DNA of 34,554 nt from a virus, in IMG/VR virus record IMGVR_UViG_3300047319_000427, positions 1-34,554 of that record; one strand, given 5' to 3'. Of the stretch, positions 11,524-32,177 are shown piece after piece. Every line of letters starts with the position of its first letter. Within the stretch, counting starts at the first letter, position 1. The position numbers and the translations under genes are program-made. Under the pieces are notes generated by a model. The model had not been told where the DNA came from. It saw only the letters and a program-made list of their open reading frames with translations, and did not search any database.

Positions 11524-13752
11524 CTAGCGAATTACGTTATCAGCGATACTTTGATCGTTCAGATCAATCGTGATCGTTTCCACATTCATCGCAAACGTGT
11601 CTGTATTCACATTATTATCCACAAGGATAAATCCTAAAACCGTGCAGACATTTGTTTGAGGTAAAGCTCTAGTCGATCCAGATAAAGTAGGATCTGCCAC
11701 TTGCTCTCCTTGTGGAGTGGCATCAAGGAACTGAACATCGCTAGGAACAGGATCAAACTCTTCAAGCCCAAAGAACATAATCGGATTAGAATCAGCTGCA
11801 ACGTTCTGCTTTCCATGATTCACTGCTAGCTCTCTAAACGTTAGAGGAGTACGAGCATCTCCAGAGGTAAACCATTTAGGTCCAATAATCCCTTGAATCA
11901 CTCCAATGGCAAACTTCCATCCAAGTCCACTAGGAGCTGCTGGTAGAGCTGTATCAACTAAAGAAACATTCCCAACTAAATCCATTGTCTCAACGTAGTT
12001 AACGGTAAACGTGGTAGCAGTGTTATCTGAAATTCTGCATTCGTAGAAAGTAGGATTCTTAATTAAAGTCGCTTCTGTGCCATCCGTGGACTCCTGCCAG
12101 ACTAGGACTTGAATCCCTTTAAGACCGTCTCCAGCTGTGTCAAATGCTGCTCCTGAGGCTGTGAGTACGGTTGTAGTTTGTCCTGCTGCATCTAGATCCC
12201 CCTGCATATCTCCAGAGGCTACCCAGTCATAGTACCGATTATCAACATTATCCAAGCCAAGACGAGCAATACCCCCGCTATAACCAAACTGACCAATGTA
12301 AACTCGTCCTCGAATCTGTCCATAAGTGAAGACGTCCAAATAACGGAGAGGGTAATACTCCGGATCACTCCTTAAATCCCCAGAATTTAAGTCTAATTCT
12401 AGGATATAATTCGGTACTGTATTTCCATCCAAGTAAATTGCCCATCTGATTGTATCTTCATTCCGGTAGTAGGCTCCATGGATAAAACTGATCCTCCAAC
12501 ATTCAGAGTTGGTGTCTAAGGTGACCCGGTTTAGAACGCTTTTAATCTTTTGAGTTGAAATCGGCATCACTGTGCTCCCATCACTCATCACTATCTCTCT
12601 CTTGCCTTTACTGAAATCTAACCAGTAAAGACGTCCATGAGCGGGGACAATGGAAAAATGAGATCCACACCCAAACTCAGTGGAAACGAAGTTCAACCCG
12701 TCATCCAAAGGAAATCGGTCATAATCCTCCGCAATCACCCAATTAGCTCCCATGATAAGAACTCGATTGGTATTAGGCACCTTCCCAGCCGCTAGTACTG
12801 CACTAGGATAATCATTGTTAATGTTGTCAAATGGGAAGCTGTGAGGGTTTAGGAGATTCGATACCTTCCTGTTAGGTTCAGTCCAGATCGATCCGGTCTC
12901 ACTCCCGGTCACTCCATCGTAGGTATCCGCAGTACCGTCAGCATTAACCAAAGTCACTGTATTAGGGTCTACGTATCGACAAAGGTAGGTTCCTCTCCCA
13001 TTAAATCCTCCCGTAGTATCTGAATCCCTTTTAATGTTCCAAAACTCTATTCCATCATAAATGGTTTCAGATGTGGTAACCGTGGATGATCCATTCGTGA
13101 ATGTACCCGTCACTCGTTTGACAATCCCTCCCGCACTTAACAAGCGACCGTTAATCTCCAACAAAATAGGCTGGGCTGTAGGGAAGTCGTTATCAGTATT
13201 TAAGATGAAAGAGTCTGCTTGTGCTGTTCCTTCATTCGTCGTGGTGCAGGTCGGAAACCCGTTAGCCATGATGATGTTGAATTCAACCACACTATTATCA
13301 TTACCGCATCCCAGTACGACCCTATAAAATGTCCCATAGGTAGAATCAATCTTTTGAGCGACATAAATATCAATGTTATCAACTTTCGTGTCTGTTGTGG
13401 AAACCTTGGTTAAAAGAACGTCATCTCCAGATCCCAGAGTAACATCTACAATGTTTGATCTATTTCCCTGGATGTTATCTCCAGAGAGTCCGTCATCAAA
13501 GAATGTTGAACGGTAAACAATGCAAATACCATAAGTCCCTGCGGTGCTTGTCCCAGCTCCGTTAAATGGAGCTGTTAAATTAAAACATGGAATGATTCCT
13601 AGACGGTAAACATCTGCGGATGAAGCGATGTTATTCCCAAAGCAACGCGGGAAACTCTCTCCGTTCCCAAAAACTCCAGCCCCCCACTCCCTATGAGCTG
13701 CATAGGTGGGCTTGTAGTTGGGGCTGAGTGACAGTAAAATTGGGGTAGGTAT
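11524..13752 (-). CDS. Large tail protein with non-standard start, about 742 aa
   Basis: The frame is open from 13791 down to the TAG at 11524. The first ATG, GTG or TTG is the GTG at 13288-13290, yet the residues before it are clearly coding (LSPNYKPTYAAHREWG, GNGESFPRCFGNNIAS, YGICIVYRSTFFDDG). A Shine-Dalgarno AGGAG at 13758-13762 lies five bases before an ATA codon (13750-13752), which I take as the start. The protein is beta-strand rich with repeated G/D turns (FPLDDGLNFVSTEFGCGSHF, SDGSTVMPIS) like large tail or stabilisation proteins with a propeller-type fold. Alternatives are a -1 frameshift from the upstream gene within 13764-13791, or a mutated ATG. Confidence 0.6.
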   Translation of the reverse strand: MPTPILLSLSPNYKPTYAAHREWGAGVFGNGESFPRCFGNNIASSADVYRLGIIPCFNLTAPFNGAGTSTAGTYGICIVYRSTFFDDGLSGDNIQGNRSNIVDVTLGSGDDVLLTKVSTTDTKVDNIDIYVAQKIDSTYGTFYRVVLGCGNDNSVVEFNIIMANGFPTCTTTNEGTAQADSFILNTDNDFPTAQPILLEINGRLLSAGGIVKRVTGTFTNGSSTVTTSETIYDGIEFWNIKRDSDTTGGFNGRGTYLCRYVDPNTVTLVNADGTADTYDGVTGSETGSIWTEPNRKVSNLLNPHSFPFDNINNDYPSAVLAAGKVPNTNRVLIMGANWVIAEDYDRFPLDDGLNFVSTEFGCGSHFSIVPAHGRLYWLDFSKGKREIVMSDGSTVMPISTQKIKSVLNRVTLDTNSECWRISFIHGAYYRNEDTIRWAIYLDGNTVPNYILELDLNSGDLRSDPEYYPLRYLDVFTYGQIRGRVYIGQFGYSGGIARLGLDNVDNRYYDWVASGDMQGDLDAAGQTTTVLTASGAAFDTAGDGLKGIQVLVWQESTDGTEATLIKNPTFYECRISDNTATTFTVNYVETMDLVGNVSLVDTALPAAPSGLGWKFAIGVIQGIIGPKWFTSGDARTPLTFRELAVNHGKQNVAADSNPIMFFGLEEFDPVPSDVQFLDATPQGEQVADPTLSGSTRALPQTNVCTVLGFILVDNNVNTDTFAMNVETITIDLNDQSIADNVIR

Positions 13753-13760
13753 GGTAGCTC

Positions 13761-14327
13761 CTAGGGTATAGTCATGTTTGTTAAGATCCCGTTACTATAA
13801 TAAAGTCGATTACTGAAGATTCCTCCAGTGACGGTTAGAGGCCAGTTGGTCACGATAGCTGTGAATCCAAGAACGCCTTTCACCGAATAAGCATTTGCAT
13901 CATTTGTACCATTTGCCCTGAAGTTCACGCTATTCGTCCATGATCCAACTAAAGCTGTGACATTAGTTCCCAGTCCTCCGCTAATCAGAGGGATTGGAGC
14001 TATAACGACGAGATTTGAAGTAACGAATTGAAGTTTATTAGTATAGCTACCGTTTAAGAATGTGATGTTGGTTCCCGTTCCACCGTTAGCGATTGCAACT
14101 TTACCAGAAGTGATGAATGAGGCTGAGGAATTGGTGAGATCAACGTACCTGACAAGATTCCCAATGTTTGTGGGAGCAACCGTCATATTTACTTGGTTGC
14201 TGAAGGTAAGTGGGGTGGTAACCACGTTTCCGGATATATCTACCATGACCGCTTTAAACACATCACCAATCGCGGCTACGAAAATTACACAACACATTAC
14301 TAATGCTAGGGCTAAGAGTTTTTTCAT
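13761..14327 (-). CDS. Secreted GGTGTN-repeat tail-fibre-like protein, 188 aa
   Basis: A classical signal peptide (MKKLLALALVMCCVIFVAA) starts the protein. The rest has two related segments, VAIANGGTGTNITFLNGSYT and IPLISGGLGTNVTALVGSWT, each ending in a TN-x-x-x-F strand, as in fibre-like repeats. A leader on such a protein is unusual for a virion component. It overlaps the upstream gene by ATGA (14324-14327). Its stop (TAG, 13761-13763) overlaps the ribosome site of the next tail gene, so the two are coupled and could even be joined by a -1 frameshift. The gene appears inserted between two pieces of tail protein. Confidence 0.55.
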   Translation of the reverse strand: MKKLLALALVMCCVIFVAAIGDVFKAVMVDISGNVVTTPLTFSNQVNMTVAPTNIGNLVRYVDLTNSSASFITSGKVAIANGGTGTNITFLNGSYTNKLQFVTSNLVVIAPIPLISGGLGTNVTALVGSWTNSVNFRANGTNDANAYSVKGVLGFTAIVTNWPLTVTGGIFSNRLYYSNGILTNMTIP

Positions 14328-14974
14328 ACTTGGGTACTGTTGAGCGATCCGGTGTTGTCCACTGATAACCGAAAATTATCTAAATTACCATCTTGAAAGA
14401 CAGGACCGAAACCAGTTTCAAAACTCTGAGCTGTTGTGTATGAAGTCACAGGAGTTGACGGTCCAAATATCCCAGTCTTAATCGTTCCTGCTTGAATGTA
14501 GAGCCTTGAGATCGTTGTAGAGAACTTAAACCCAAAGAGAGCGTTCTGAGCTACAAATAGGTCTGAGGAGATCGTAGTCCCTGGCGCCGCTATCCCCGTC
14601 ACTGTGATAGCTCCACTAACGTCTACGGCTACTTTCCACCAGTTTAAGTCAGGACTTTGAAGGTCTAGCTCTGATCCTGTATCAAATAAGAAATCAAAGA
14701 TGCTGATGAGTTCAGACCAGTCATAGAGGATGATGGATCCGTTATTATCATAAACGAGAATCTTATCAGGACTGAGAGGGTCTCCATCTACTTTGATGTC
14801 AAAGATACCCATGACTCCGAATTCCAAGGTTGCTCTCGTTTGCACCCCTTGACGTTTCTTCCCGCGTTGACCCCAACCTCTCACATTCTGCATGAATGCA
14901 TACTCTCCAGCCTGCCTCTTCAGGTTCCCCTGATCGGGCTTCGCGCTAAAGTCATGTAGAATTGTCTTAGACAT
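14324..14974 (-). CDS. Tail protein N-terminal module, 216 aa
   Basis: I start it at 14974 (MSKTILHDFSAKPDQG), where ATG overlaps the end of the upstream gene by eight bases; a longer frame to 15082 runs through that gene. Residues 24-64 (EYAFMQNVRGWGQRGKKRQG, then VMGIFDIKVDG) match the N-terminus of the 452-aa neighbour (EFNQNV...KRKGV...IMGIFDIELDG), so the two are paralogues there. Proteins starting this way (ready list of positions, KR-G, then a GIFD strand) are typical tail or connector proteins with propeller-like bodies. This one is short, and its body may continue in the 742-aa gene. Confidence 0.55.
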   Translation of the reverse strand: MSKTILHDFSAKPDQGNLKRQAGEYAFMQNVRGWGQRGKKRQGVQTRATLEFGVMGIFDIKVDGDPLSPDKILVYDNNGSIILYDWSELISIFDFLFDTGSELDLQSPDLNWWKVAVDVSGAITVTGIAAPGTTISSDLFVAQNALFGFKFSTTISRLYIQAGTIKTGIFGPSTPVTSYTTAQSFETGFGPVFQDGNLDNFRLSVDNTGSLNSTQV

Positions 14975-16325
14975 TGTAGGTAAAAGGTCCGAGTTTAGCT
15001 GCCATGAATTGCGCGTTTGCAAACCATCCCACAGAATTAACTGGCGCACTTGGATCCAGAAGAGCCACAATTCCAGATACATCTGCCTGAACTTGGGCCT
15101 GCGTTAGGGTGTAGAAATTGGTTCCATTTGAAAGTAAAACATAGGTGTTAATTGCAGGACTTCCAAATTGAGATGGAGGAAAATAAATTTCATTCGCAGA
15201 ATTAGCATGAAGGAACTGAGTAAATAATAGCTTAATTTGAACAGCTGGATATTTAACAATGTTAGGAGACGAAAGGGTTGCTCTATTTGTAGTATAAATA
15301 AAATGATCTGCATCTGCATCTCCACCTGCAAATCCAAATCCTGCATCTGCAGCAGGAGTATCAGATTGAAAAGCACATGCAATCTCAAGTGCTTTTCTTG
15401 TATTACCATCAGGAGCTAATGGATAATTGGTTACGATACATGCTCTAGCATTAGCCTCAACGCCCCACGGCTCAATCCAATATCGCCTATGACTATTTGG
15501 TGTGATAATTGTAGCCCAATCCGCATCCACATTAACCCATTCAAATAGTCGTATCGCAGTCCTGCATTGAGCTAAGCGTTGTTTATAAGTAGCTGGAGTT
15601 GCTGCTGGAGGCACTATTGATGGGACGGCTGTATCATAATAAAGAATATCTGTCGCTCCCTGCATGGATGAGATGTTTCGGATATAAGAGAAAGTCGCTA
15701 GATCGACTGCTGTTCTAATATCATTAACAAGCTCTGCTCCTCGAGTCCCAGCCGGAACCGAGAAATGAGCATCCCATTGTCCTAGATCATATCCATAAAA
15801 ACCATTCACAGGCATAGTTATATTTCCTACAGCCCCAACATAATATGTGCCTTTAAGCTGAGTAGCTGGAGCTTCTCCTGATCCTCCAATAAAACCTCCA
15901 GCATTAAACATTCTATTAGGAAAGATAAATGTAGGCAAATTATGCCTAGCCAATCTCTCATTTATAGCCCTCATGGTCTTCTCAAGAGGGAATAAGGTAA
16001 AGACGTTGCCTCCAGCTGAATCTAAAGGATCTGCAAATGGATAAGGATCAGGATCATTCATCGTTGCCGATGCTAGATCGGGGAAGAATGTAAGAGTCCC
16101 TCCTGCCTGAAAGATTGGAATGATGATCCCATCTAGCTCAATATCAAAGATCCCCATGATTGGATCTGGGCTTGAACTCACCGGCTCAACTCCTTTTCTC
16201 TTCGCTAGATTCTTGAATGGACGAGGATGGACGTTCTGATTGAACTCCATCTCTCCCTTATCTGTGATAAGAGAGGAGGTAGTGGTATTAATTCCCTTGA
16301 AGACATTTATGACAATTTTTGCCAT
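14967..16325 (-). CDS. Tail/stabilisation-type protein, 452 aa
   Basis: The N-terminus (MAKIVINVFKGINTTTSSL, EMEFNQNVHPRPFKNLAKRK, IMGIFDIELDG) resembles the opening of short-tailed-phage tail or stabilisation proteins, where a conserved Q-N segment and a KR-G stretch come first. The remainder is a mixed alpha/beta body (about 110-452) with aromatic-rich strands (YYVGAVGNITMPVNGFYGYD) that I cannot assign. It begins one base into the stop of the adaptor gene at 16325 and ends overlapping its shorter paralogue, so the order adaptor, tail protein, tail protein is continuous. Confidence 0.55.
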   Translation of the reverse strand: MAKIVINVFKGINTTTSSLITDKGEMEFNQNVHPRPFKNLAKRKGVEPVSSSPDPIMGIFDIELDGIIIPIFQAGGTLTFFPDLASATMNDPDPYPFADPLDSAGGNVFTLFPLEKTMRAINERLARHNLPTFIFPNRMFNAGGFIGGSGEAPATQLKGTYYVGAVGNITMPVNGFYGYDLGQWDAHFSVPAGTRGAELVNDIRTAVDLATFSYIRNISSMQGATDILYYDTAVPSIVPPAATPATYKQRLAQCRTAIRLFEWVNVDADWATIITPNSHRRYWIEPWGVEANARACIVTNYPLAPDGNTRKALEIACAFQSDTPAADAGFGFAGGDADADHFIYTTNRATLSSPNIVKYPAVQIKLLFTQFLHANSANEIYFPPSQFGSPAINTYVLLSNGTNFYTLTQAQVQADVSGIVALLDPSAPVNSVGWFANAQFMAAKLGPFTYNV

Positions 16326-18859: not shown

Positions 18860-19282
18860 CTAATGACGGTCCGCTTTGGCGCCTTCCAACCGAATTATCT
18901 CATCGAAACCATCGCTAATCTGAATCCGTTTCTCTTGGATATAGTCTGGAGAGTATTCTGCTCCATTCTTCCATGATTCCAGATAAGATCCTAGAAGGCT
19001 TCCTTTTGGGTTTATTAAAATATCCCATTGCTTACATGATACAGCGTTACTTTTACCCTTTCCCTGCTCATAGGCATAAGCAAAAGACAGTTTATCCTGT
19101 AAAACAGTGATTTGTTCCGCATGGAACGTTGCTGGCGTATTAGAAGCATCTACAAGAGCCAAGGACTCAATCTTCAGATTTTGAGCGTTATAATAGCTGT
19201 TTTGATCGTAGGAACTGATGAGGTTCGCACAGCCTGCAAGAAAAATCAGACCAATTAACGGGAGTTTTAGTATTGTCTTCAT
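18860..19282 (-). CDS. Lipoprotein of the lysis region, 140 aa
   Basis: I start it at 19282 (MKTILKLPLIGLIFLAGCAN); a longer frame to 19348 runs into the holin-like gene and lacks sense. The leader ends in a clear lipobox, LAGC, so the mature protein would begin at Cys18 and be lipid-anchored. The body (about 30-140, ESLALVDASNTPATFHAEQI, then YEQGKGKSNAVSCKQWDILI) resembles a phage protein family usually found beside holins; its function is not defined. An outer-membrane-linked lipoprotein here could be a spanin partner, although it is larger than Rz1-like proteins. Confidence 0.6.
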   Translation of the reverse strand: MKTILKLPLIGLIFLAGCANLISSYDQNSYYNAQNLKIESLALVDASNTPATFHAEQITVLQDKLSFAYAYEQGKGKSNAVSCKQWDILINPKGSLLGSYLESWKNGAEYSPDYIQEKRIQISDGFDEIIRLEGAKADRH

Positions 19283-19286
19283 AAGA

Positions 19287-19526
19287 CTATTTAGGTGGGA
19301 TTCCGGATGATTGGTCTGAAAGTTGTTTATGGATGGTGTTCTTCTCAATCATGGACCACGCCAGATTTGAAGCTACTAGAAGGATGCCTGTGATAGTTTC
19401 GGTTAACCCTTGAATCTGGGCGGCTCCAGCTTGATCTGTTAATCCTCGTCCAATGAGCCATACACACACAGCATTTAAACTGTGACGAACAATAGGTAAC
19501 AATATTACTTTTAAGAATTTATCCAT
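19287..19526 (-). CDS. Holin-like two-span membrane protein, 79 aa
   Basis: The start is placed at 19526 (MDKFLKVILLPIVRHSLNAV), just after the upstream stop; a longer frame to 19565 overlaps that gene. Hydrophobic spans lie at about 16-31 (LNAVCVWLIGRGL) and 41-60 (LTETITGILLVASNLAWSMI), with the polar end KNTIHKQLSDQ. An arginine/histidine N-terminus, a Gly-Arg-Gly turn and a W-S-M-I-E-K end are typical of small phage holins of the Pam3 gp28-like kind. It would form the inner-membrane lesion for lysis. It lies four bases before the lipoprotein start. Confidence 0.6.
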   Translation of the reverse strand: MDKFLKVILLPIVRHSLNAVCVWLIGRGLTDQAGAAQIQGLTETITGILLVASNLAWSMIEKNTIHKQLSDQSSGIPPK

Positions 19527-19530
19527 AATT

Positions 19531-19809
19531 TTATTTAGCAAAAAGGTGATAAACACGTTCTCCAACCAATCCTATAATAGTGCTGGCAAATACGGTCCTT
19601 AATACTTTCTTTTCTTTTTCAGAGTCTGTTAATTCCTTAACTTTAACCTTTATGCCAGGATTAGAGTCTCCTGTCCCCCATATCTCTTCAGAGTGTGATT
19701 TTATTAGTTTACCTTGTTCTTCTATCTGGATTTTGGTGACTTGGATATGGTTCTCCAACATCCCCTTCATCTCCGTCACTTGCATCAAAATCTGATGGGT
19801 ATCATTCAT
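19531..19809 (-). CDS. Coiled-coil protein with C-terminal span (XhlA-like), 92 aa
   Basis: A long helix (MNDTHQILMQVTEMKGMLEN, then HIQVTKIQIEEQGKLIKSHS) is followed by a GTGDSNPGIKVKVKELTDSE segment and a C-terminal membrane-prone end (VFASTIIGLVGERVYHLFAK). This order, coiled coil then a single span, matches the haemolysin XhlA-like proteins of phage lysis modules, which assist the holin. Its ATG overlaps the previous stop as TAATG, and the holin-like gene follows after four bases. Confidence 0.55.
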   Translation of the reverse strand: MNDTHQILMQVTEMKGMLENHIQVTKIQIEEQGKLIKSHSEEIWGTGDSNPGIKVKVKELTDSEKEKKVLRTVFASTIIGLVGERVYHLFAK

Positions 19810-19983: not shown

Positions 19984-20826
19984 TTAGTAGTGTTGGTATC
20001 TGTTTTTTAGGTAGGTTTCGACTTCTTGTCTGTTAGCATCTGAAAGGGCTGTCCGATAAATTATGACTTCAAATACGTCTCCAATGAGAGAGCGACTAGC
20101 CACTATCCCATCATATTCTGCTCCAATTCCGAATTCTGATACCGAAGTAACCGGACCAGATGTATCAGCTATATTCGTAACAATCTGTGAACCGTTCTGA
20201 TAAACATTCCATGCGGTTGAAGACTTTACGTAAGACCGGGTATAGGCTTGATTGGTCAATAAAGCCTTGGGTCCAAGATCGGTTCCAGCTCCAGCTCCCA
20301 CCCATCCAAGTCCATCAAGAGGATCGTTCCCCATTTGCAATGCCCATCTTGCATTACCTGGATCACGAATTGCAAAAGCCACTTCATATTGAGTTTGAGC
20401 AGATCCACAGGTTGCAACGTAAATAATTGTCCAAGATGTTCCCGCTACAACTCCATTTGTATTAACCAAGCCAGAATCTGTAGCCACCCCCCTTATTGCA
20501 GGATAACCATTCAGGACGTTAGATATTTGCTGCATCTTGGTTCCTGAAAAATATAAAACATCATTAGTATGTCCAGATTGGTCAGCCCACCCTTCAACCA
20601 GGTTTGTTGATGTTCCAAGCGTTAAACCGGTATCCGATTTAAACCATGCAAAAGTGTTGGTTGGACCTTGAACTGCCGGGCCGCTCCCACCGCCACTTCC
20701 TCCTCCACCACTACCTGCTATGCTTGGACTATATCCTGTAGAACCACCAGCACCAGCCTGAGAATAGACATGATAGCTTAGAGCCACCATCAGACCGATT
20801 ATTCCAAGAGTAACTTTCCATTTCAT
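19984..20826 (-). CDS. LamG/concanavalin-like adhesin with signal peptide, 280 aa
   Basis: A hydrophobic leader (MKWKVTLGIIGLMVALSYHV) with SYHVYSQAGAGGST following is then linked by a Gly/Ser-rich spacer (about 37-48). The domain from about 57 to 275 is LamG-like: AWFKSDTGLTLG, WADQSGHTND, GYPAIRGVATDSG, WTIIYVATC and the ending IGDVFEVIIYRTALSDANRQ with VETYLKNRY. Such jelly-roll domains bind sugars or surfaces. The leader suggests secretion or membrane insertion, odd for a virion adhesin. The leader matches that of the 424-aa protein. Stop and start overlap its neighbours closely. Confidence 0.65.
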   Translation of the reverse strand: MKWKVTLGIIGLMVALSYHVYSQAGAGGSTGYSPSIAGSGGGGSGGGSGPAVQGPTNTFAWFKSDTGLTLGTSTNLVEGWADQSGHTNDVLYFSGTKMQQISNVLNGYPAIRGVATDSGLVNTNGVVAGTSWTIIYVATCGSAQTQYEVAFAIRDPGNARWALQMGNDPLDGLGWVGAGAGTDLGPKALLTNQAYTRSYVKSSTAWNVYQNGSQIVTNIADTSGPVTSVSEFGIGAEYDGIVASRSLIGDVFEVIIYRTALSDANRQEVETYLKNRYQHY

Positions 20827-21236
20827 TTGGTAGCGATTAAATCTTTAATATCCTTCACAGCATCCGTTGAAGCTTTAAGAGTCGGAGACTGAAAGCTTTT
20901 GGGTGTAAACACGTCAGATGTCACAAGATCGAAGTCCACTTGTGAGATCGATCCTTCGACCTTGTCTGGGTTAGAAGCATCAGCAAACCAGATTTTAAAA
21001 CGAATCGGAGCCTTTCCTAAACTAAACTCTGGAGAGGAAGCAATACCTGTGATTTTATCCAACTCAGCCTGAGTCTTAATGTCAATCTTCTCACATTGAG
21101 AAACATCTTTGAGACGGCCATAAACCTCAAGATGATAGCCTCCAGGGAAGCTTTCAACAAAGATTCTGGTAATAGTGGCAGCCTCTAAATTTAGATTTAA
21201 GGATAAAACTAAAATAAGAGCAGATAGTATTTTCAT
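20823..21236 (-). CDS. Secreted hypothetical protein, 137 aa
   Basis: MKILSALILVLSLNLNLEAA is a classical signal peptide with likely cleavage near LEA/A. The mature part is beta-rich (TITRIFVESFPGGYHLEVYG, PIRFKIWFADASNPDKVEGS) with a helical tail. No family recognised. It overlaps the LamG-like gene start by ATGA (20823-20826) and begins two bases after the 424-aa protein stop, so it is part of the signal-peptide cluster. Confidence 0.55.
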   Translation of the reverse strand: MKILSALILVLSLNLNLEAATITRIFVESFPGGYHLEVYGRLKDVSQCEKIDIKTQAELDKITGIASSPEFSLGKAPIRFKIWFADASNPDKVEGSISQVDFDLVTSDVFTPKSFQSPTLKASTDAVKDIKDLIATK

Positions 21237-21237
21237 A

Positions 21238-22512
21238 TTATAAAGAAGGCATTACACCAAATACTCCATAAGTTCCATTGCTTGGGGTATGAGCAATGTT
21301 TGGATCTCTGTTATTGATATAAAGAGTGATTGTTCCGTTAGTTTTACAACTCACATCCACTAGCAAGTATTGATCGAGAGCACCTCCTCCAGGAACAATC
21401 TTCATATAGGCTCCGTTTGTAATAGATCCAGTTACAGGAAAGTTTGTGCTATAAAAAGAATTTGTTCCAATCGATCCAGGGATCAGATTAACGGTTGCCA
21501 TCAAATTAGGACCAACTGTTGAACTATTCGTTGTAGCTTGGAAATTGACTGCGTTTAATTGAATTACATTTGTACTAAAACTTCCAAGTTTAGCTCCACT
21601 TGCTGAAATTGTTGTCTTGGCACTAGTTCCAGTCCCACCTCCTACATCGGTGGATGAACCAGTCGAAGCCGTATTGTTAATGAAGGAAACGGTTCCACCT
21701 GAATTCAATCCATTATATCCTGTGGCAGATAATGCTCCATTTCCTACCAATAAATTCCCATTCGAAGAAACCTGCATTACAGTGGTTCCATTTGCAGTTT
21801 TCCACACTTGCATTCCAACCGCTCCGCCTCCCGGACTTTGCACCACAGTTAAAGCAACACCGCTTACACCCGCTCCTTGAATCCTAACAGCTTCAGTTGT
21901 GGCAATTAGATTAGTACCAAAAGAAACACCACCATTCGTGATAAACATGGTGCTAGTATTGTAATTAAGACCCCCAACCGTGGTAGCTGTTCCAGCATTA
22001 AATGTAACTGAATCAGAAGCTGCATCTCCAAAAGTTGAATTCCCATCAATAGCAGCATTCCCATTGACTTGGAAATTTGCATTGGAAAGCATAATCAGGC
22101 CGGTACTACTTCTAAATGAAAGCATTGGCCCATTATTAGTAGAACCCAATCTGAATCCTTGAAAAGAGTTGGTCTGAATGATTCCTATGGGATTTCCTAA
22201 TGGATCCGTGAAATAAACATAATCACCACTTGGACCTCCCGGAAAGAATTTGGTGGTTCCAAATTGATTGGTTCCAGCTGAATTCGTTGAAATAATCTGA
22301 CCGTTACCAGTACCAATAAAAAGATTGGATACCGTGACAGACCCAGAAAAGCTCTGATTCGTGGAGTTATTAGATCCCGCTGGAGGGTTAACGAAAGCAG
22401 TCGAACCTCCTCCTCCAGACTCTGATAACCCTTGATAGCTTATGGCAATCATCAAGGCTAATGCCCCTAATACAATACCTATCCGATTAAACCGAATGCC
22501 TTGATTATCCAT
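21238..22512 (-). CDS. Fibre-like protein with leader sequence, 424 aa
   Basis: After a short polar start (MDNQGIRFNRIG), a hydrophobic leader follows (IVLGALALMIAISYQGLSES), then GGGGST and a long Gly/Ser/Thr/Asn-rich body with repeats of short strands (FQVNGNAAIDGNSTFGDAAS, GGGTGTSAKTTISASGAKLG). The C-terminal 60 residues (YMKIVPGGGALDQYLLVDVS) form a different, probably globular, end. The body resembles phage or bacterial tail-fibre shafts. The leader resembles that of the LamG-like protein, hinting at a shared targeting or docking module. It lies four bases after the 155-aa gene. Confidence 0.6.
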   Translation of the reverse strand: MDNQGIRFNRIGIVLGALALMIAISYQGLSESGGGGSTAFVNPPAGSNNSTNQSFSGSVTVSNLFIGTGNGQIISTNSAGTNQFGTTKFFPGGPSGDYVYFTDPLGNPIGIIQTNSFQGFRLGSTNNGPMLSFRSSTGLIMLSNANFQVNGNAAIDGNSTFGDAASDSVTFNAGTATTVGGLNYNTSTMFITNGGVSFGTNLIATTEAVRIQGAGVSGVALTVVQSPGGGAVGMQVWKTANGTTVMQVSSNGNLLVGNGALSATGYNGLNSGGTVSFINNTASTGSSTDVGGGTGTSAKTTISASGAKLGSFSTNVIQLNAVNFQATTNSSTVGPNLMATVNLIPGSIGTNSFYSTNFPVTGSITNGAYMKIVPGGGALDQYLLVDVSCKTNGTITLYINNRDPNIAHTPSNGTYGVFGVMPSL

Positions 22513-22516
22513 TTGG

Positions 22517-22984
22517 TTAATTCTGGTTATTTTCAGGTTTTACATCAATTTGAAGTGTTCCTGTCGTTACGTTCGTGCTTGAAATAGAGCAACGGAAATA
22601 ACGAGATAATCTACGAGTCCTATCCACAAATGTATTTGTAGGATTAGACATATCAATCGCATACACCCTGGAGCTGATCGTAAACGGAGTCTCCCCACCA
22701 GAAGTAGTCCCGGCTGATAGAACCGGCTCATCATAGAAGGTTGTTCCATCTGAAGACCATTGCGGTTTTACCTTGCCATTAGCCGCTGCCTGAGAAGTTG
22801 GAACTGTAATGATTAAGGTACAGGAATCGTAACTCTGAAGATCAATGTTCGTGGTCGCAACATAGCTAGACGTTAAGGTCGTAGGACCCAACAGCCTAAT
22901 CAATCCGCCGCTCTGCACCTGCTGTGCCGCAGCCCATACTGTAGCTATCATTAAAGAAGCTACAAAAGCATATCGGATCTTCAT
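22517..22984 (-). CDS. Secreted beta-sandwich-like protein, 155 aa
   Basis: The signal peptide MKIRYAFVASLMIATVWAAA is followed by a beta-rich domain: LIRLLGPTTLTSSYVATTNI, SYDSCTLIITVPTSQAAAN, KPQWSSDGTTFYDEP and RYFRCSISSTNVTTGTLQID. The W-S-S-D-G turn and strand order resemble small virion decoration or tail proteins. A strong ribosome site (AAGGAGG) precedes the ATG. It lies between the 141-aa and 424-aa secreted proteins. The exact function is unknown. Confidence 0.6.
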   Translation of the reverse strand: MKIRYAFVASLMIATVWAAAQQVQSGGLIRLLGPTTLTSSYVATTNIDLQSYDSCTLIITVPTSQAAANGKVKPQWSSDGTTFYDEPVLSAGTTSGGETPFTISSRVYAIDMSNPTNTFVDRTRRLSRYFRCSISSTNVTTGTLQIDVKPENNQN

Positions 22985-23005
22985 TCGATCCTCCTTTTTT
23001 AAATG

Positions 23006-23431
23006 TTAAGGAAACGTACCTGTATTCTTGTATCCGTAGATAAGAATGGGAATGTTATTCGTTCCAACTCCACCAGAGGCGAGACCTGAAGCAATAAGAT
23101 TCGAAGTCGTTACGGTAATCGTTACAACTCCGTTTCCTGATGGCAATACTCCACTGGTTCTTCCAACAAATACTAGAGGAGTTGCAACATAAGATACTCC
23201 AAATGTATTCGTATATGCTGTATCAGTACCAGACACTGTTGCTGTCAATGATACGAGACTATACTCATTCGTATTGCTATCTCCCGAAACAACCACTGGC
23301 AATGCACTGGTGGTATTTGTACCGCCTTGCGCAATCATGGTGCTGTTTCCTGCGCGTGAAATCTTCTTCACATCCGCAAAAGACAGAGAAACAAATGCTA
23401 AAACTAAAGCAGAAATTAAGATCTTTTTCAT
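23006..23431 (-). CDS. Secreted GGT-containing beta protein, 141 aa
   Basis: The leader MKKILISALVLAFVSLSFAD has a likely cleavage site after SFA. The mature protein has short fibre-like motifs (MIAQGGTNTTSALPVVVSGD, SGGVGTNNIPILIYGY) and strands ending in TVTTSNLI. Similar GGTNT/GGVGTN motifs occur in the 188-aa secreted protein, so the two may be related by function. It is the first gene after the major capsid, with a strong GGAGG site six bases before ATG and a large hairpin upstream. Confidence 0.6.
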   Translation of the reverse strand: MKKILISALVLAFVSLSFADVKKISRAGNSTMIAQGGTNTTSALPVVVSGDSNTNEYSLVSLTATVSGTDTAYTNTFGVSYVATPLVFVGRTSGVLPSGNGVVTITVTTSNLIASGLASGGVGTNNIPILIYGYKNTGTFP

Positions 23432-23488: not shown

Positions 23489-24436
23489 TTAGGCTCCAGC
23501 GTTTCCATACACCCCGAACCATGTCGGAGTTGCAACTTCGAAACGTTCACTGGTTTTCCAGCTAAACACATCTTTATCAACAGCGTTACCCAGTTCAACA
23601 GAACCAGTAACATTGAAGAGCGAAGTAATGTTCATCATTTTGCGTTGGTAATTTACCAATGCGAAGGACAGAACTTCGGAAGGGTTAGCAACCAAGAACC
23701 ATGCTGTGTCAGAGGTCAATAGAGGGCTCGTGAGAACCGTCATATTTGTTAGTGAACCAATAACGTTAGCTTGGTTTTCCATGGATTGAGGAACCCATTC
23801 GCTCTTAATCAATTCGTTTGCACGACGCTCAAGAGCTTGAGGAACCACAATGAATTTTGCATCATAGATGTTATCGAACAAACCAGAATTACCCTTGGTA
23901 GTCTTCATGGTGTTTCGACCAGTCCATAGTGAATCAATATCAAGTGCCGTAGCTACTGAAGCACGGTTTGATTGAGTTCCACCATTAACCAGAACATGAA
24001 CAGTGTTGAAAAGGCTCAAGCCATCTTCAGCCAACTGAGTTGTGAACCCGTTGTTGAGAAGGTTAAGTCCTCGTCGTTCATGAGTTTGATCCATCGAGTT
24101 GCGCATTCCTTTAGCAACGCTATCCTGAATCGAGGTGAAGAGGTTATCTTCAATCAACTCACGGGATACGTCAGTAATGAATCCGAACTTCTTGGGTTGG
24201 ATTGTGATTGCAATGTCTTGCTTGATTTCCTTCTGAGGATAAGCACCGTTTTCAGCAACTTCCGTCGCTTCACCTTGTCCCACGACACGGTTAACAATTT
24301 CGTAAGCACGATCCGTGGTCTTTTGGAGCAGGATCTGCTTTGCGATCATCGGGATCGTTGCATTGGTTTCGAAGAACATTGAGCGCAACCGAGCATCAAC
24401 CGCACTCAACATGCTACTTGTAATTACTGTAGACAT
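23489..24436 (-). CDS. Major capsid protein, HK97-fold type, 315 aa
   Basis: Expected length for a capsid subunit. Helical start (MLSAVDARLRSMFFETNATI), a middle with E-loop-like strands (EIKQDIAITIQPKKFGFITD), the long helix (ELIEDNLFTSIQDSVAKGMR, then RRGLNLLNNGF) and a C-terminal P-domain-like beta region (NANVIGSL-type turn, LTSPLLTSDTAWFLVANPSE, then VFSWKTSERFEV). The order portal, scaffold, two head proteins, this gene is the standard head module. It should be the most strongly expressed gene. No SD is obvious before its ATG (AAAAATAT), which is notable for a capsid gene. Confidence 0.8.
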   Translation of the reverse strand: MSTVITSSMLSAVDARLRSMFFETNATIPMIAKQILLQKTTDRAYEIVNRVVGQGEATEVAENGAYPQKEIKQDIAITIQPKKFGFITDVSRELIEDNLFTSIQDSVAKGMRNSMDQTHERRGLNLLNNGFTTQLAEDGLSLFNTVHVLVNGGTQSNRASVATALDIDSLWTGRNTMKTTKGNSGLFDNIYDAKFIVVPQALERRANELIKSEWVPQSMENQANVIGSLTNMTVLTSPLLTSDTAWFLVANPSEVLSFALVNYQRKMMNITSLFNVTGSVELGNAVDKDVFSWKTSERFEVATPTWFGVYGNAGA

Positions 24437-26409: not shown

Positions 26410-26682
26410 TTAGACTTCGCCAGACTTAAGGGCTGTATGTATCCCGATTTCCAACATAACAGATAACTGTTCGAAAGTTTTTGCAGTAGCTTGTTCTGCG
26501 ATAGCGGAATTTAAATCTCCATCTTCAATGTGTTCTCGTAGACGTAAAACTGACTTATCAGCCTGTTCTTTTAATAGGACAATTAGGAATCTAGCTTCCT
26601 GAGATCCCGCGAGAGCTTCTAATTCAAACTTAGTTATCGATTCGGTTTCGATGAACTCGTTACCTAAAGGAATCTGGATCAT
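26410..26682 (-). CDS. Small helical protein after portal, 90 aa
   Basis: After MIQIPLGNEFIETESITKFE it is a string of helices (LEALAGSQEARFLIVLLKEQ, SVLRLREHIEDGDLNSAIAE). The stretch FLIVLLKEQADK is hydrophobic on one face only. ATGA overlap (26679-26682) couples it to the portal gene. It could be a small head or packaging accessory protein. No motif. Confidence 0.5.
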   Translation of the reverse strand: MIQIPLGNEFIETESITKFELEALAGSQEARFLIVLLKEQADKSVLRLREHIEDGDLNSAIAEQATAKTFEQLSVMLEIGIHTALKSGEV

Positions 26683-28832
26683 ATCCCACGTCCTTGACCA
26701 CCTACTCCAGCAGTAGGACGAGCTTCAAGAGGGCCGGCTAACATGGAAGCTCCTATCGGATTAGGACGCGCACCTTCACCCAGACCGCCGGGTTGAATCC
26801 CCTGCAACTGTCCTTGTCCAGCCTGAGGAGCATCCGCAGCAGCTTGAGCGAGATAATCTTGCATCAATTTCTGAACATTCTGATCTTTATTCAGGATCTC
26901 TTCAGGATTAGGAAACACAGAGGAGAATGCTTTATACACTCGAGTTAAGAAAGCGACTGGATTTGTAAATGGTGCAAGTGCTGGAGAGAAAACGACTTGC
27001 GTAAGATTGAGCAATATCTGTCTGACAGTTGCTTTATTCTCAAACTCTTGCACGCTAACCTCTTCGAGCATCATAGGTGCGTTGAACTCATCTGCGGTTA
27101 CCATGAATGTAGCTTTCTCTCCTTCTGGTCCTGCAACCTCTACCGCAATATCTTTATCCAAGAATTGAGGGGCGTACTCTTGAACTTTCTTCATATACGC
27201 TCCGTAAAGCTGCATATTGATCTGCTTAATATCGTTTAAAGCTGGAGCACTTGATTGATCCCGGATGGTAGAGAACTCAGTAGCTGAAGTACGTCCTCCC
27301 AAAGCTTCTCCCATAGCAAACGGTGGAGTTTGACTTACTTTCTCTGAATCATCAGAGATGTACTGTAAACTTGGCATTATACTATGGGTAATATCAGGGA
27401 CATCAAGCTGACGAATGGCATCCTGGCTAGTTACATCAAAAACCTTGTCATAGCCCATCTTCATGTCTTTGTTTTTGACTCTTCCGATCATGCGGGAGAT
27501 GGGACGCATGTTCTGCAAGGTCCGGTTGTCCATTAACTGACCTTTAGCCACTGTTTCTTGGATATAATTATCGTACAAGAGGTTGGCTAGCCCTCTGTGA
27601 TAAAACCCTGAATCATCTTCGTGCGAATGAGCGGCAATAAACGGAATTCCATTAGACCAATAAGGAGATTCCTGGAATCTTACGACAACCGCGCTGTTAC
27701 TTTGAATATCTCCGATACATTCCATGAGATAACGACGAGAAGGAGCGTTTTGATCCCATTTTAAGCTGATTACCTTCCCATTCTTGCCAATTTTGGTCTT
27801 AATCTTTGGTAAAAGGATCCAAGCTTGCCAATGTTCATACATTTCTGACATATAAGAGTCTGTTAGACCTTTACCGGCATTCTCCACCCTCTGCAGCTCT
27901 TCCTGATTCGCTGTGGAATACGGATTGAACTTCTGAATCTCGGTAATCTTCTCAAAATTGGTGAACTGCCCCGTTAAACACTTGTTAACAATCTCTCCTC
28001 GGGTCATGTCGGAGCGGTAAAGGAAGCAGGTTTGACGATCTAGATCTGGAATTCTGTTATCCATCCAGCATTGGTCGATCTTAATTGGATGAAATCCTAC
28101 TTCATCATGACAAACATAATCGTACTCTTCTTCTTCAGCCTCCATAGGGTGAGGCGTATTTGAAATCTCGCCCGTATCGATGTGCTTATATCCAATTTCA
28201 CCCGTTAAGCCCGTAATCTGCTCATTAGGATTCTTGTTAATCCATCTCTTTTTCTTCTCAACTTCATAATCATAAGGCACATAAGCGATATGATCGGCAT
28301 ATTTGAAAAGAGAGTGGTAGGAATATCTTGCCTTGCGCTCAAACTCAGTCTTCCTTGCGCAATATTTACCCCATCGATTCAACGCCTCAGCCACGGTAGC
28401 TTTACGTTTCTTATTCTCTGAGGTTTCGAAAATTCCTATATCAGGCTGGAACTTGACTGGTTGTTCTTCAGTGAAAGATGCTAGGAATGCTCCGTCTGCG
28501 AGGCGACGGCACACACGATGGAATACAGACGCAGATACCTTAGCTCGTGTTAATTCAGATAATCGGTGATCCCGAAGGCTCATCCAATACATCTCATCCG
28601 CTGGATCCCATACGTTTTGCTTTTGATTTAACCAGTTAACTTGAAAAGCTCTATAAAACTCTCCCGCCATTCTTAACGTACCCGCTACAACTTCATTAGG
28701 TCCATTATCATCATAGATAGCTAAGTTAGGTTGCCCCTTAGCTTTAACTTTCTCTGCAACTGGTGAGGGTTCTATTGGCTTCCGATCCTCATCATTTAGA
28801 AAGAGAGTGTTGATCGGAGCATCTGGGACCAT
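26679..28832 (-). CDS. Portal protein, 717 aa
   Basis: The size and layout fit the large portals of short-tailed phages. N-terminal helices (VAGTLRMAGEFYRAFQVNWL, VWDPADEMYWMSLRDHRLSE) precede a long mixed domain with a central stretch (RRYLMECIGDIQSNSAVVVR, PFIAAHSHEDDSGFYHRGLA) typical of the portal stem/clip region. Then LLYDNYIQETVAKGQLMDNR and a helical barrel-like end, with a Gln/Gly/Pro-rich tail (residues about 660-717) that may reach into the head. The portal forms the DNA entry ring. It directly follows the terminase gene in reading order and overlaps the 90-aa gene by ATGA. Confidence 0.75.
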   Translation of the reverse strand: MVPDAPINTLFLNDEDRKPIEPSPVAEKVKAKGQPNLAIYDDNGPNEVVAGTLRMAGEFYRAFQVNWLNQKQNVWDPADEMYWMSLRDHRLSELTRAKVSASVFHRVCRRLADGAFLASFTEEQPVKFQPDIGIFETSENKKRKATVAEALNRWGKYCARKTEFERKARYSYHSLFKYADHIAYVPYDYEVEKKKRWINKNPNEQITGLTGEIGYKHIDTGEISNTPHPMEAEEEEYDYVCHDEVGFHPIKIDQCWMDNRIPDLDRQTCFLYRSDMTRGEIVNKCLTGQFTNFEKITEIQKFNPYSTANQEELQRVENAGKGLTDSYMSEMYEHWQAWILLPKIKTKIGKNGKVISLKWDQNAPSRRYLMECIGDIQSNSAVVVRFQESPYWSNGIPFIAAHSHEDDSGFYHRGLANLLYDNYIQETVAKGQLMDNRTLQNMRPISRMIGRVKNKDMKMGYDKVFDVTSQDAIRQLDVPDITHSIMPSLQYISDDSEKVSQTPPFAMGEALGGRTSATEFSTIRDQSSAPALNDIKQINMQLYGAYMKKVQEYAPQFLDKDIAVEVAGPEGEKATFMVTADEFNAPMMLEEVSVQEFENKATVRQILLNLTQVVFSPALAPFTNPVAFLTRVYKAFSSVFPNPEEILNKDQNVQKLMQDYLAQAAADAPQAGQGQLQGIQPGGLGEGARPNPIGASMLAGPLEARPTAGVGGQGRGI

Positions 28833-28869: not shown

Positions 28870-30375
28870 TTAAACTATAACTCGATCATCAATTGCCCAC
28901 ATCATTTCACAACAAGCTGCTTCCAAGCAATCCATCGCATGATCGTCTTTATTTTGGATTTTGATCTCCAAAGTTGAACTTCTTTCATTAAAAGTCTTCT
29001 TAAATGTCTTTTTCTGTGCCTCCCAGATCAAATTTGCACAAGAATCCATAATATAAAGCCTTGGAGCACCTGATTCATGAGTAATAAAGTGTTTTTCTGT
29101 TTTATTTACATGTAGCCATTTTCTAGTTTTATCCCTTCGAGCCTCCTGTCCAAGGGTTGACCATGGCATCACAGATAATCCTTCTTTAACGTATTCAAAA
29201 TCTACTCCTCCTTCTCTTTGTGGATTCTGACTGAACTCAGCGTGATCCAGCTGGGTCATCTCGTACTTCTCGTTAATCTCCTGCTCGATATAGATGTATC
29301 CATCCTTCTGACGCTGGTTCCCACTCATCTCGATTATGTCCTTGCAACGCTCCGAGATCAGAGTTCCTTTTTTGTAATACTCCCGATAAACAAACATCAC
29401 ATTATTAGGGCTTAGAGCTATCCACAAACAAGCGCAAGGAGCCGCCATCCCCGCATCAATGAATCTGAATCTTTTCCAATTCTTAGGAATGGGGAACTCT
29501 TTAATGACGTGGACGTTGATATCAAAGTCAGGCCACCATCTCCCCGAAACATAGGCAAACTCTCCATATCGTACAGCCGGTTCGAAAGGGGTGCCTGAAT
29601 ACATCCTTAACGTTTGCTCCTTCTCTTCTAAAGGATAGATTTCAGTTGGTACATCCTCGATTCCTAATTTTAGGTGCATGAATGAGTCTGTTCCGATAAC
29701 CTTCATTGGGTTACTACATAATTCAGGCAAATAACTAAGATCAGCATCATCCAAAGCAACGGTAATAATAATTCTTCCATTGGTAGTCCTTGTTCTGTCT
29801 AAACATTCTTTTAATATTTCAAACGGTGGTTCCTCATCCAAATGAATCATGTCGTATGCACCCGACTTCCAAACCTCCAAACTCTGCTCGTAAGTTCTCA
29901 CAACACATTTAGAGCAGAACTTTCCAATCGTTGAGATGGAAGGACGTGTGTGCGTGAACCAGTGTTTAATCTTACTGGGAGGAAGCATATCTCTATAGAT
30001 TTTTAATAGAACATCCTCTACATGGTTTAAGGATCTTCCTCCAATAAGACCTATGCGATCAGCCATGGTTTTTGTATGCCAAGTACGATTAAAATCAATC
30101 CCCATGGCTCGCGCCCCGGGCCACATCTTATTAATCTCTCCCTCCATCCAGCAACACATGATGTAACTTCCTAGGCTGGTTTTTCCAGTACGTTTCCATC
30201 CGGATAGGACGGTAACCTTAGGCATCTCTGTCATCCACCGCTTAATATGAGCGGCTAGCTTCGGATACTTAACAGTGGTCCCGAAAAATGCTAACGGATA
30301 GATCTCAAACGCAGACTGAACTTTCTTCCTGTCATCGGGAGAGAGACTCTTAATGTATGAAAGAGGGACGTGCAC
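28870..30375 (-). CDS. Large terminase subunit, 501 aa
   Basis: The ATPase half shows Walker A GWKRTGKT (59-66) and Walker B DMIHLDEE (175-182). The nuclease half has the first RNase H-like acidic strand FRFIDAGM (303-310) and a closing DDHAMDCLEAA near the C-terminus. This motor pumps DNA through the portal and cuts the concatemer. The start is GTG at 30373-30375; no ATG lies in this frame before the upstream TGA. It follows the GroES-like gene by one base and precedes the portal by 37 bases. No small terminase is identified unless it is the partial gene at the right edge. Confidence 0.8.
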   Translation of the reverse strand: MHVPLSYIKSLSPDDRKKVQSAFEIYPLAFFGTTVKYPKLAAHIKRWMTEMPKVTVLSGWKRTGKTSLGSYIMCCWMEGEINKMWPGARAMGIDFNRTWHTKTMADRIGLIGGRSLNHVEDVLLKIYRDMLPPSKIKHWFTHTRPSISTIGKFCSKCVVRTYEQSLEVWKSGAYDMIHLDEEPPFEILKECLDRTRTTNGRIIITVALDDADLSYLPELCSNPMKVIGTDSFMHLKLGIEDVPTEIYPLEEKEQTLRMYSGTPFEPAVRYGEFAYVSGRWWPDFDINVHVIKEFPIPKNWKRFRFIDAGMAAPCACLWIALSPNNVMFVYREYYKKGTLISERCKDIIEMSGNQRQKDGYIYIEQEINEKYEMTQLDHAEFSQNPQREGGVDFEYVKEGLSVMPWSTLGQEARRDKTRKWLHVNKTEKHFITHESGAPRLYIMDSCANLIWEAQKKTFKKTFNERSSTLEIKIQNKDDHAMDCLEAACCEMMWAIDDRVIV

Positions 30376-30376
30376 A

Positions 30377-30676
30377 TTAAGTGTAGATCATTAACTCCAC
30401 ATCATCTTCAAGTACCATGGCATGCCAATGTTTCTTTAATCCTACTAACTCTGACGCAAGGGGAGAGAGGCGGTCATCATAACAAATTACAGGGACTAGA
30501 CACTCACGACCAAGATCCTCTCTCTTAATCTGACGACATTTTGGACCAATAGATATAATAGTTCCGGTGTTTGGAACTCTTTTATATTTGTCTGCCGTCT
30601 CGATTAAAGTCGATCCTAGATGATTGATCTGATTGCCCAGATCAACGAGAACCATTCTGCGCATCATTTTGAGCAT
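30377..30676 (-). CDS. GroES-like co-chaperonin candidate, 99 aa
   Basis: GSTLIETADKYKRVPNTGTI, with GTIISIGP (38-45), then a region rich in beta strands, and the end MVLEDDVELMI match the GroES order: a mobile loop region, a G-x-x-x-x-x-G strand and the closing ED-x-x strand. Phage co-chaperonins (as in T4 gp31) help host GroEL fold capsid proteins. ATGs at 30676 and 30667 are both possible; the second overlaps the glycosyltransferase stop by ATGA. It is placed just before the terminase. A distant assignment, to be read as probable only. Confidence 0.45.
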   Translation of the reverse strand: MLKMMRRMVLVDLGNQINHLGSTLIETADKYKRVPNTGTIISIGPKCRQIKREDLGRECLVPVICYDDRLSPLASELVGLKKHWHAMVLEDDVELMIYT

Positions 30677-31968
30677 AAGTTTTTATTATAGAAAGTAAGG
30701 GCGGAAATATCAGCCAACTGAGTTGGTTTTAACCCTCTAAATGATGGAGATTCTCTGAAAATAATAGATGCAAGCCTGTGATCCCATGTATGATGAAGCT
30801 CAAAAGTCATCCTTGAAGAATGCCCCATATCCTTCATTCCCTTCTTATCTCTAAGAATCTCTGAGACTTTCTCTTCAATCTCATCCGGTAATCCATAAGC
30901 ATAATAAGGAGTTGCCTTCAAAGCTTCTGACCAACCAGGTTTAATATCTGTGAGTAGAGGACGACCTGATGCCATGGTTTGAAAGTTTCTGTATGGTATC
31001 CCTTCTTTCACAGATTGAGGATCTGTAGCTCCGATGTGTAAAGCTCCGTAATGATAGAGGTGAGCCATGGTTTTAGCTCCCGAGGTATCGACTACTTTCA
31101 ATCGTTTCGAAAAGTCTCCAATGAAGTAACGAAGCTCTCCTTCGTTTGCATGTCCTTTCTGTCTCATATCAGTGAAGATCATTAACGGACTAGCTTTTAA
31201 CACTTCTCTTAATGCTCTGATTCTTACTTCATTTTTACTATGCGCCCAGATGCACCATCTCATTTGTAATACTTCTCCAGGATCTAGTTTCTCAATATCT
31301 TGAAAGAGTCTGAGATCTCCCGCACTCAATCCACTCTTAGCTTCAGATTCAACAACATCCCATGAAGGGATCTCTCCTTTGAAATTCGAAACATAGTTCA
31401 TGGAGGAATCTATGATCTTCTGAGCAACTTTATTGACCCATTGTCTGCGTTTCTGAATCTCTCCCATTGAGTGAAGACCTCCAATGAAGACACATTCATC
31501 ACTTAACTGAGTATCACATTCGAAGTACTCATCTCCGTCCTCAGCTAGGTGCATGATCTTGGCGTTCATTCCAAACTTGATCATACACTCATCAGCCCAA
31601 TAATTGTCCCATACATAAAACTCAAAGTCTGAGAGACGGGAGCAGGACTTGACTGCTTCAGTGAATCCCATTCCTTCTATCCTCATCACTGGATCATCAA
31701 ACCATAGATTTACTTTAATTCCGTCACAGGCTTTTAATGTGTCTGCGTACTTCCATGCGAGAACTCCGATGAAGATAATCAAATCAGGTTTGATATTCTT
31801 TAAAGCTTCATAGAACTCAGTCTCAGGCATCATCTTTGCTTGATGGAAGATGGAGATCAGATGAGGTTGGATGTGCTTCTTATTTAGATAATTGATTACG
31901 TGGCGAGTGGTACCCTCTAAACCTTGAGTCGCTCCGTCAATGACCACGATTTGATTTGGCAATATCAT
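30664..31968 (-). CDS. CgeB-like glycosyltransferase, 434 aa
   Basis: I start it at 31968 (MILPNQIVVIDGATQGLEGT), which overlaps the upstream stop by ATGA; a longer frame runs to 31989. A Rossmann-like N-terminal half (PDLIIFIGVLAWKYADTLKA, KVNLWFDDP) is followed by the acceptor-to-donor linker and a C-terminal signature, GIPYRNFQTMASGRPLLTD, then SRMTFELHHTWDHRL, as in the CgeB/GT-B family (glycosyl transferase 1_2). It would add sugars to a phage or host molecule, for example virion proteins, DNA or the cell surface. Its place before terminase and capsid genes favours a virion or host-surface target; the substrate is unknown. Confidence 0.65.
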   Translation of the reverse strand: MILPNQIVVIDGATQGLEGTTRHVINYLNKKHIQPHLISIFHQAKMMPETEFYEALKNIKPDLIIFIGVLAWKYADTLKACDGIKVNLWFDDPVMRIEGMGFTEAVKSCSRLSDFEFYVWDNYWADECMIKFGMNAKIMHLAEDGDEYFECDTQLSDECVFIGGLHSMGEIQKRRQWVNKVAQKIIDSSMNYVSNFKGEIPSWDVVESEAKSGLSAGDLRLFQDIEKLDPGEVLQMRWCIWAHSKNEVRIRALREVLKASPLMIFTDMRQKGHANEGELRYFIGDFSKRLKVVDTSGAKTMAHLYHYGALHIGATDPQSVKEGIPYRNFQTMASGRPLLTDIKPGWSEALKATPYYAYGLPDEIEEKVSEILRDKKGMKDMGHSSRMTFELHHTWDHRLASIIFRESPSFRGLKPTQLADISALTFYNKNLCSK

Positions 31969-32177
31969 TTTAATTTCTTTGGAACCCATCCCAAACGATT
32001 GACATAAAAAACTCCGTCACTGACGTCCACATTCTCATTGAGCTTAAACTTACCATTAAGTCCTCGGTAGAGAGTTTGGCCGTCTAATGTAATGCTATCA
32101 CTCTTCTTATAAGGACCACGCTTATCCGTTCTTCGTCTCGCCTTCTTACCATGCTCACTTTGCTTCTTCTTCTTCAT
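31965..32177 (-). CDS. Small basic protein, 70 aa
   Basis: A very basic N-terminus (MKKKKQSEHGKKARRRTDKR) is followed by a beta-prone part (DSITLDGQTLYRGLNGKFKL, VFYVNRLGWVPKKLK). A nucleic-acid-binding or assembly role is likely from charge. The stop overlaps the glycosyltransferase start by ATGA. Its ATG lies only three bases after a terminator-like U tract (32181-32212), with no clear ribosome site, so expression may depend on read-through. Confidence 0.5.
   Translation of the reverse strand: MKKKKQSEHGKKARRRTDKRGPYKKSDSITLDGQTLYRGLNGKFKLNENVDVSDGVFYVNRLGWVPKKLK

Follow-up and report, generated by a model that had tools for sequence, protein, structure and literature searches.

Tailed phages, in the textbook view, assemble wholly in the cytoplasm. 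What, then, is to be made of a tailed phage in which five consecutive genes after the major capsid gene, and a sixth in the tail module, all begin with a hydrophobic leader of the Sec type? The locus comes from the virus record of an uncultivated tailed phage, of which the 34.5 kb analysed here are called the window. The explanation we favour, which in our judgement is evenly balanced between right and wrong, is that these are genuine Sec/signal-peptidase-I leaders on external virion parts, which would be exported, cleaved, folded outside the cytoplasm and joined to the heads late.

The window and its leader genes

A near-identical contig, 3300046517_000786, is the same phage and measures 43,642 bp, with 127-bp identical ends. 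Over a 20-kb stretch the two differ at 13 bases, all inside 6021-7988, and over another 1.1-kb stretch at a single base; all these strain differences fall outside the leader genes and carry no signal of selection on them. On the minus strand of the window the order is terminase (28870-30375), portal protein (26679..28832; phrog_1216), major capsid protein (23489..24436; PF25209 Phage_capsid_4, E 1.7e-16; phrog_4523/371), the cluster of five leader genes, a set of lysis-like genes, and tail and internal proteins. The Pfam assignment of the capsid gene upholds the placement of the cluster by the first-pass annotation, and both capsid and portal are leaderless. So too, unlike its counterparts in the clade described below, is a head-closure/nozzle-like protein (11524..13290, minus strand; phrog_578 head closure Hc3, E 5e-4; leader score -1.4). 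The minus strand also encodes a small holin-like membrane protein (19287..19565), called from sequence only and with an uncertain start, and a glycosyltransferase (30664..31989; PF13524 Glyco_trans_1_2, E 1.9e-9). A spanin-like lipoprotein at 18860..19282, minus strand, adjoins the leader cluster and scores 4.7 from an internal ATG of 18860-19348; its lipoprotein start is a separate, ordinary case, and its lipobox (LIFLAGC) points to a diderm as the probable host. Two scans of genome contigs found neither a provirus nor a host.

The six leader genes, all on the minus strand, were recovered where the first-pass annotation had put them. The first, directly after the capsid gene (23006..23431, 141 aa; MKKILISALVLAFVSLSFA↓DVKK, the arrow marking cleavage; score 4.93), occupies the cement/decoration position of related podophages, as judged against the 'cement protein' of DSL-LC04. 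The second (22517..22984, 155 aa; MKIRYAFVASLMIATVWAAA↓QQVQ; score 4.31) has two cysteines in its mature part and found no match in the databases searched. The third (21238..22512, 424 aa; score 3.52) is fibre-like, its leader running into a GGGGST linker; this is the weakest leader of the six, with an acidic N-terminus and a less clear cleavage site. A homologue search with the fourth (20823..21236, 137 aa; MKILSALILVLSLNLNLEA↓ATIT; score 3.46) came back empty. For the fifth (19984..20826, 280 aa; MKWKVTLGIIGLMVALSYHVYS↓QAGA; score 4.13), read at first pass as a LamG protein, the LamG/ConA-like adhesin domain is a weak call (Laminin_G_3, E 0.005, below Pfam's cut-off), and the match to the virion structural protein family phrog_10356 is stronger (E 2.4e-8); the other window leader proteins gave no match to known virion parts. 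The sixth (13761..14327, 188 aa; MKKLLALALVMCCVIFVAA↓IGDV; score 5.42) is a fibre-like protein of the tail module with GGTGTN repeats.

Leader scores and background

Leaders were scored with a home-made heuristic that considers the n-, h- and c-regions and positions -3/-1 and was calibrated on 12 exported proteins of E. coli. The six window leaders scored 3.46-5.42, essentially the span of the E. coli controls (3.17-5.40, n = 12), while the best other called window gene, a membrane protein at 3533-3853, reached 3.07 and the remainder did not exceed 1.6; shuffling of the six N-termini gave p = 0.000-0.030. By this scorer the Sec/signal-peptidase-I pattern of a positive n-region, a hydrophobic h-region and small residues at -3/-1 is present in the leaders of the window and of the clade alike. 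The 409 downstream genes of 78 distant capsid-relative loci outside that clade include only 9 that score above 3.2 (about 2%, several of the nine being spurious), and because the background is this low, five window leaders in a row are far beyond chance. In the 4.5 kb that follow the capsid gene, the clade itself has leaders on 87 of 165 genes, Wzy_C N-termini included, against the same 9 of 409 in the other relatives.

It might nevertheless be argued that these N-termini are hydrophobic by chance, or that the starts were called wrongly, since the scorer is a heuristic only and four of the six window starts lack a Shine-Dalgarno site. The starts at 23431 and 22984 do have perfect GGAGG sites (AAGGAGG at the second), and three others abut or overlap the preceding stop, as in the ATGA at 20823-20826 where 19984..20826 overlaps the gene before it; the one internal downstream start in the window that would skip a leader is at codon 32 of 23006-23431. 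Against a background of 2%, the coupled starts, the conservation of the leaders across about 30 loci and the absence of internal starts from the clade's post-capsid and nozzle genes make chance or mis-calling highly improbable. The scores confirm, as far as sequence can, that the six window genes bear Sec/signal-peptidase-I-like leaders.

A distant clade with the same leaders

When the window capsid, terminase, portal and one leader protein were used as queries against viral contigs, only the near-identical contig matched, and tblastn against phages with three window leader proteins and a clade fibre returned nothing. A profile built from three capsid proteins reached 80 distant loci, the genes of which were scored for leaders, and two of these loci (L006 and L009) have leader genes after the capsid gene. 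Two further searches with their capsids and one more with their nozzle assembled a clade of some 30 contigs from uncultivated phages, whose capsids share 59-100% identity with the query. This distant clade shares the arrangement of leader genes after the capsid gene; in the window's own lineage the near-identical contig was the only relative found.

In the clade the capsid gene is followed by a leader protein of about 115 aa (protein A), a Wzy_C membrane protein, a second leader protein of about 120 aa (protein B), small leaderless genes, a leaderless protein of about 318 aa in adaptor position, a leader-bearing nozzle of about 540 aa and a leader-bearing fibre. Protein A has its leader in 30 of 30 loci, and the capsid, portal, scaffold and adaptor genes are leaderless. 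Clade genomes of 42-46 kb encode additional leader proteins, which weakly match receptor-binding or galactose-binding domains. A Shine-Dalgarno site stands at the leader start of 28 of 29 post-capsid genes and at an internal start in none of the 29; no internal leader-skipping starts were found in the post-capsid or nozzle genes, and three weak ones were found among the second proteins. The predicted structure of protein A (pLDDT 79) matched nothing at E<=1e-3, and that of protein B (pLDDT 91) is a small jelly-roll, for which 50 viral proteins matched at E<=1e-3, most of them small proteins of phages. It is this conservation of the same leader pattern at such a distance that lends support to the proposed export through the envelope and to the choice of this locus as the best candidate for an undescribed system.

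Cleavage sites and cysteines

The leaders could instead be uncleaved or slowly cleaved membrane anchors, on which nozzle, fibres and decoration assemble at the inner membrane while heads dock from the cytoplasmic side. Such an arrangement would keep assembly linked to the cytoplasm, and it would suit the poor cleavage sites of some window leaders (21238-22512). The clade speaks against it: its nozzle leaders have diverged to 34% identity compared with 58% in the mature part, and the diverged clade leaders still keep their charge, their hydrophobic core and strong A-x-A↓Q sites, with an A↓Q site in 19 of 24 post-capsid proteins. Cysteines also come in pairs. At the two cysteine positions of protein A, seven sequences have both, 16 neither and two a single one (Fisher p = 1.3e-4, shared ancestry ignored), and the pairing in protein B is similar (p = 0.009, shared ancestry likewise ignored); a general cysteine enrichment of leader proteins was looked for and none was found. 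Paired gain and loss of cysteines in the mature regions is as expected of proteins that would be oxidised outside the cytoplasm. With conserved signal-peptidase sites and paired cysteines disfavouring it, the proposal of uncleaved virion anchors seems to us quite unlikely, and the predicted export of the leader proteins is well supported by sequence.

Nozzle and fibres as probable virion parts

If the proteins are exported, they need not be virion parts: they could be adhesins or lectins displayed on the cell surface, where they would mask receptors, exclude superinfecting phages or capture virions. The window lends itself to this reading, since its cluster holds a LamG-like adhesin and fibre-like proteins and lies next to lysis-like genes, and its nozzle-like proteins have no leader; the Wzy_C protein of the clade could, for its part, remodel host surface glycans. 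The nozzle of the clade is where the reading falters. It matches head-closure Hc3 and virion structural PHROGs (phrog_578/3287) with a profile that begins after the leader, and a leader with a clear start is present in 17 of 18 sequences, the 18th having the hydrophobic segment and no obvious start codon. Twelve of 12 clade contigs carry one leader-bearing nozzle copy each (11 full-length, one cut by the contig end), and none of the 12 has a separate leaderless virion copy for which the exported one might be a decoy. Its homologue in MW202524 is annotated as a 'phage stabilization protein' and is leaderless, as are the nozzle homologues at 28-32% identity in more distant viral contigs. Most clade fibres bear leaders as well.

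By sequence, then, the leader-bearing nozzle and some other leader proteins are homologous to virion parts. With the leader on the sole nozzle copy and on the fibre after it, in standard morphogenesis gene order, we consider exported surface proteins unlikely as a general explanation. Receptor masking or surface adhesion as the purpose, as first suggested, gives no account of the leader on the only nozzle/head-closure copy of the clade; receptor masking fits the window alone. Because the window's nozzle-like proteins are leaderless, a surface role is possible there for the LamG and fibre proteins. For the same reason, and because its leader genes have no independent relatives, the logic of the clade carries over to the window only by analogy, and the first-pass interpretation as a whole is partly supported.

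Glycan genes

The Wzy_C gene (PF04932, a multi-pass membrane protein; over the cut-off in 11 of 13 records, 12 of 13 at E<=1e-3) sits between the two small leader genes and is present in all 12 clade contigs searched. It is tempting to speculate that export serves glycosylation, the phage Wzy_C acting as an O-oligosaccharyltransferase that adds host glycans to the exported proteins and yields glycan-coated virions. Glycosyltransferase genes of MW202524 and MW202497, in the module corresponding to the leader module of the clade, would fit such a purpose, as would the one at 30664..31989 in the window, which may correspond to the glycan genes of these related phages. The Wzy_C family includes LPS ligases and polymerases, however, sequence is silent on the substrate, and the window phage has no Wzy_C; we give glycosylation as the purpose a slim chance.

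A proposed two-compartment route

From the leaders, their conservation, the cleavage-site pattern, the cysteine pairing, the single leader-bearing nozzle and the virion-part homology, all of which can be read from sequence, we infer actual export, glycosylation and late assembly. Host SecYEG would carry the external parts out of the cytoplasm (decoration or cement proteins of the capsid, adhesins, fibres and, in the clade, the tail nozzle as well), after which the leader would be removed. The proteins would fold outside, where disulfides would form in some phages, and in the clade the O-antigen-ligase-like Wzy_C of the phage may glycosylate them. Capsid, portal, scaffold and adaptor would remain in the cytoplasm, where heads would fill with DNA, until holin and endolysin break the inner membrane, the two pools mix and the appendages join the DNA-filled heads late. 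Oxidative folding or glycosylation could be the reason for such a detour. This fuller form of the favoured explanation, a two-compartment morphogenesis in which heads are cytoplasmic, nozzle, fibres and decoration leave through host Sec and acquire disulfides and, from a phage glycan ligase, glycans outside the cytoplasm, and the particle is completed only around lysis, is tentative and somewhat doubtful as a whole. We know of no precedent for a tailed phage that holds its nozzle outside the cytoplasm until lysis. DNA-filled heads would need the adaptor alone as their closure.

If true, a clade with cleavable Sec leaders on its sole nozzle and on its fibres would break the rule of assembly in the cytoplasm only, and would make disulfide bonds and O-glycosylation available to virion parts; the sequence in which heads fill, tails are completed and cells lyse would become directly testable. 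The annotation rule 'signal peptide, therefore not virion' would appear unsafe.

Relation to known phage proteins

To our knowledge, a route for virion parts through the host secretion machinery is known only from filamentous phages. In these (Inoviridae), the coat proteins pIII and pVIII have signal sequences and enter or cross the inner membrane ahead of assembly (PMC4823517). The likeness lies in virion proteins with signal sequences, as predicted for the leader phages, but filamentous phages have ssDNA and are extruded at the membrane without lysis, whereas the leader phages are dsDNA tailed phages with a cytoplasmic capsid, a portal and a terminase, and have leaders on external parts only. 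Membrane extrusion of the Inovirus type does not describe the window, which encodes a tailed-phage portal, terminase and capsid. Exported phage proteins of other kinds exist, one example being an endolysin with a signal peptide (PMC8951688). Sec/SAR endolysins, spanin lipoproteins and superinfection-exclusion lipoproteins share Sec or lipoprotein signals with the leader proteins but serve in lysis or exclusion, have no homology to virion parts and lie outside the morphogenesis gene order. We found no report in the open-access literature of Sec leaders on the nozzles, fibres or decoration proteins that tailed phages make; the sequences suggest a known principle, signal sequences on virion proteins, that is new in tailed phages, where it was not expected.

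Closer in capsid are the Pam1-like short-tailed phages (Pam1, DSL-LC04 and Planktothrix phage Pag-Yong1), the clade being 38-39% identical to DSL-LC04 and Pag-Yong1. Pam1 has annotated portal, scaffold, capsid, cement and adaptor proteins (PMC9382816), and in DSL-LC04 and Pag-Yong1 the gene next to that of the capsid, at the position of the first leader gene in the leader phages, encodes a small cement or minor capsid protein; the corresponding genes, when checked, were leaderless, unlike those of the clade. Two phages from Manatee Spring also have leaderless virion genes: MW202524 (ctKR88), in which a homologue of the nozzle (30%) occurs and the same module contains glycan genes, and MW202601 (ct7ZZ929), which has the capsid closest to that of the window among the matches listed (32%).

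Origin of the leaders

A quick capsid tree places the window beside the leaderless MW202601 on long branches, both within a larger, supported grouping to which the leader clade belongs as well; one origin of the leader trait and several origins fit this tree alike. Mature clade fibres start GT[VI]..., and since this resembles the MGTL... start of the leaderless MW202524 fibres, the leader appears to occupy the place of the start Met. In the window, 21238-22512 and 19984-20826 have paralogous leaders and Gly-rich linkers (alignment score 76, against at most 41 for 62 other leaders) in front of different domains, which suggests the reuse of a leader-linker cassette.

The propeller-like portion of the nozzle is encoded at window positions 11524-13290, and two adjacent genes at 14967-16325 and 14324-14975 have products whose nozzle-type N-termini resemble each other, as though they arose by duplication and splitting of the nozzle gene. 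In the Manatee Spring phage genome MW202524, glycosyltransferase genes (L092:3031-7191) lie between the capsid and nozzle genes, in the position that is occupied in the leader clade by the O-antigen-ligase-like membrane protein Wzy_C.

In clade contigs L006 and L009 (L006:89-673, L009:53-430, minus strand), inspection by eye shows an RlpA-like protein of the double-psi barrel type that begins with a leader and is possibly a Sec-exported lysis enzyme. In the clade phage L160, consecutive minus-strand genes (G004:C1:33275-34716) carry lipobox-type signals, which suggests that its host is diderm.

HNH-endonuclease-like ORFs, identified by eye, are dispersed over the window genome at three positions: 2862-3335, 33391-33909 and, as an insertion within the tail module, 10898-11521. 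Over 20 kb, the window differs from the contig of the same phage at 13 bases, all of them at 7227-7854 within a single gene (6021-7988); the changes are mostly synonymous, and the cluster is a recombined tract or strain mosaic.
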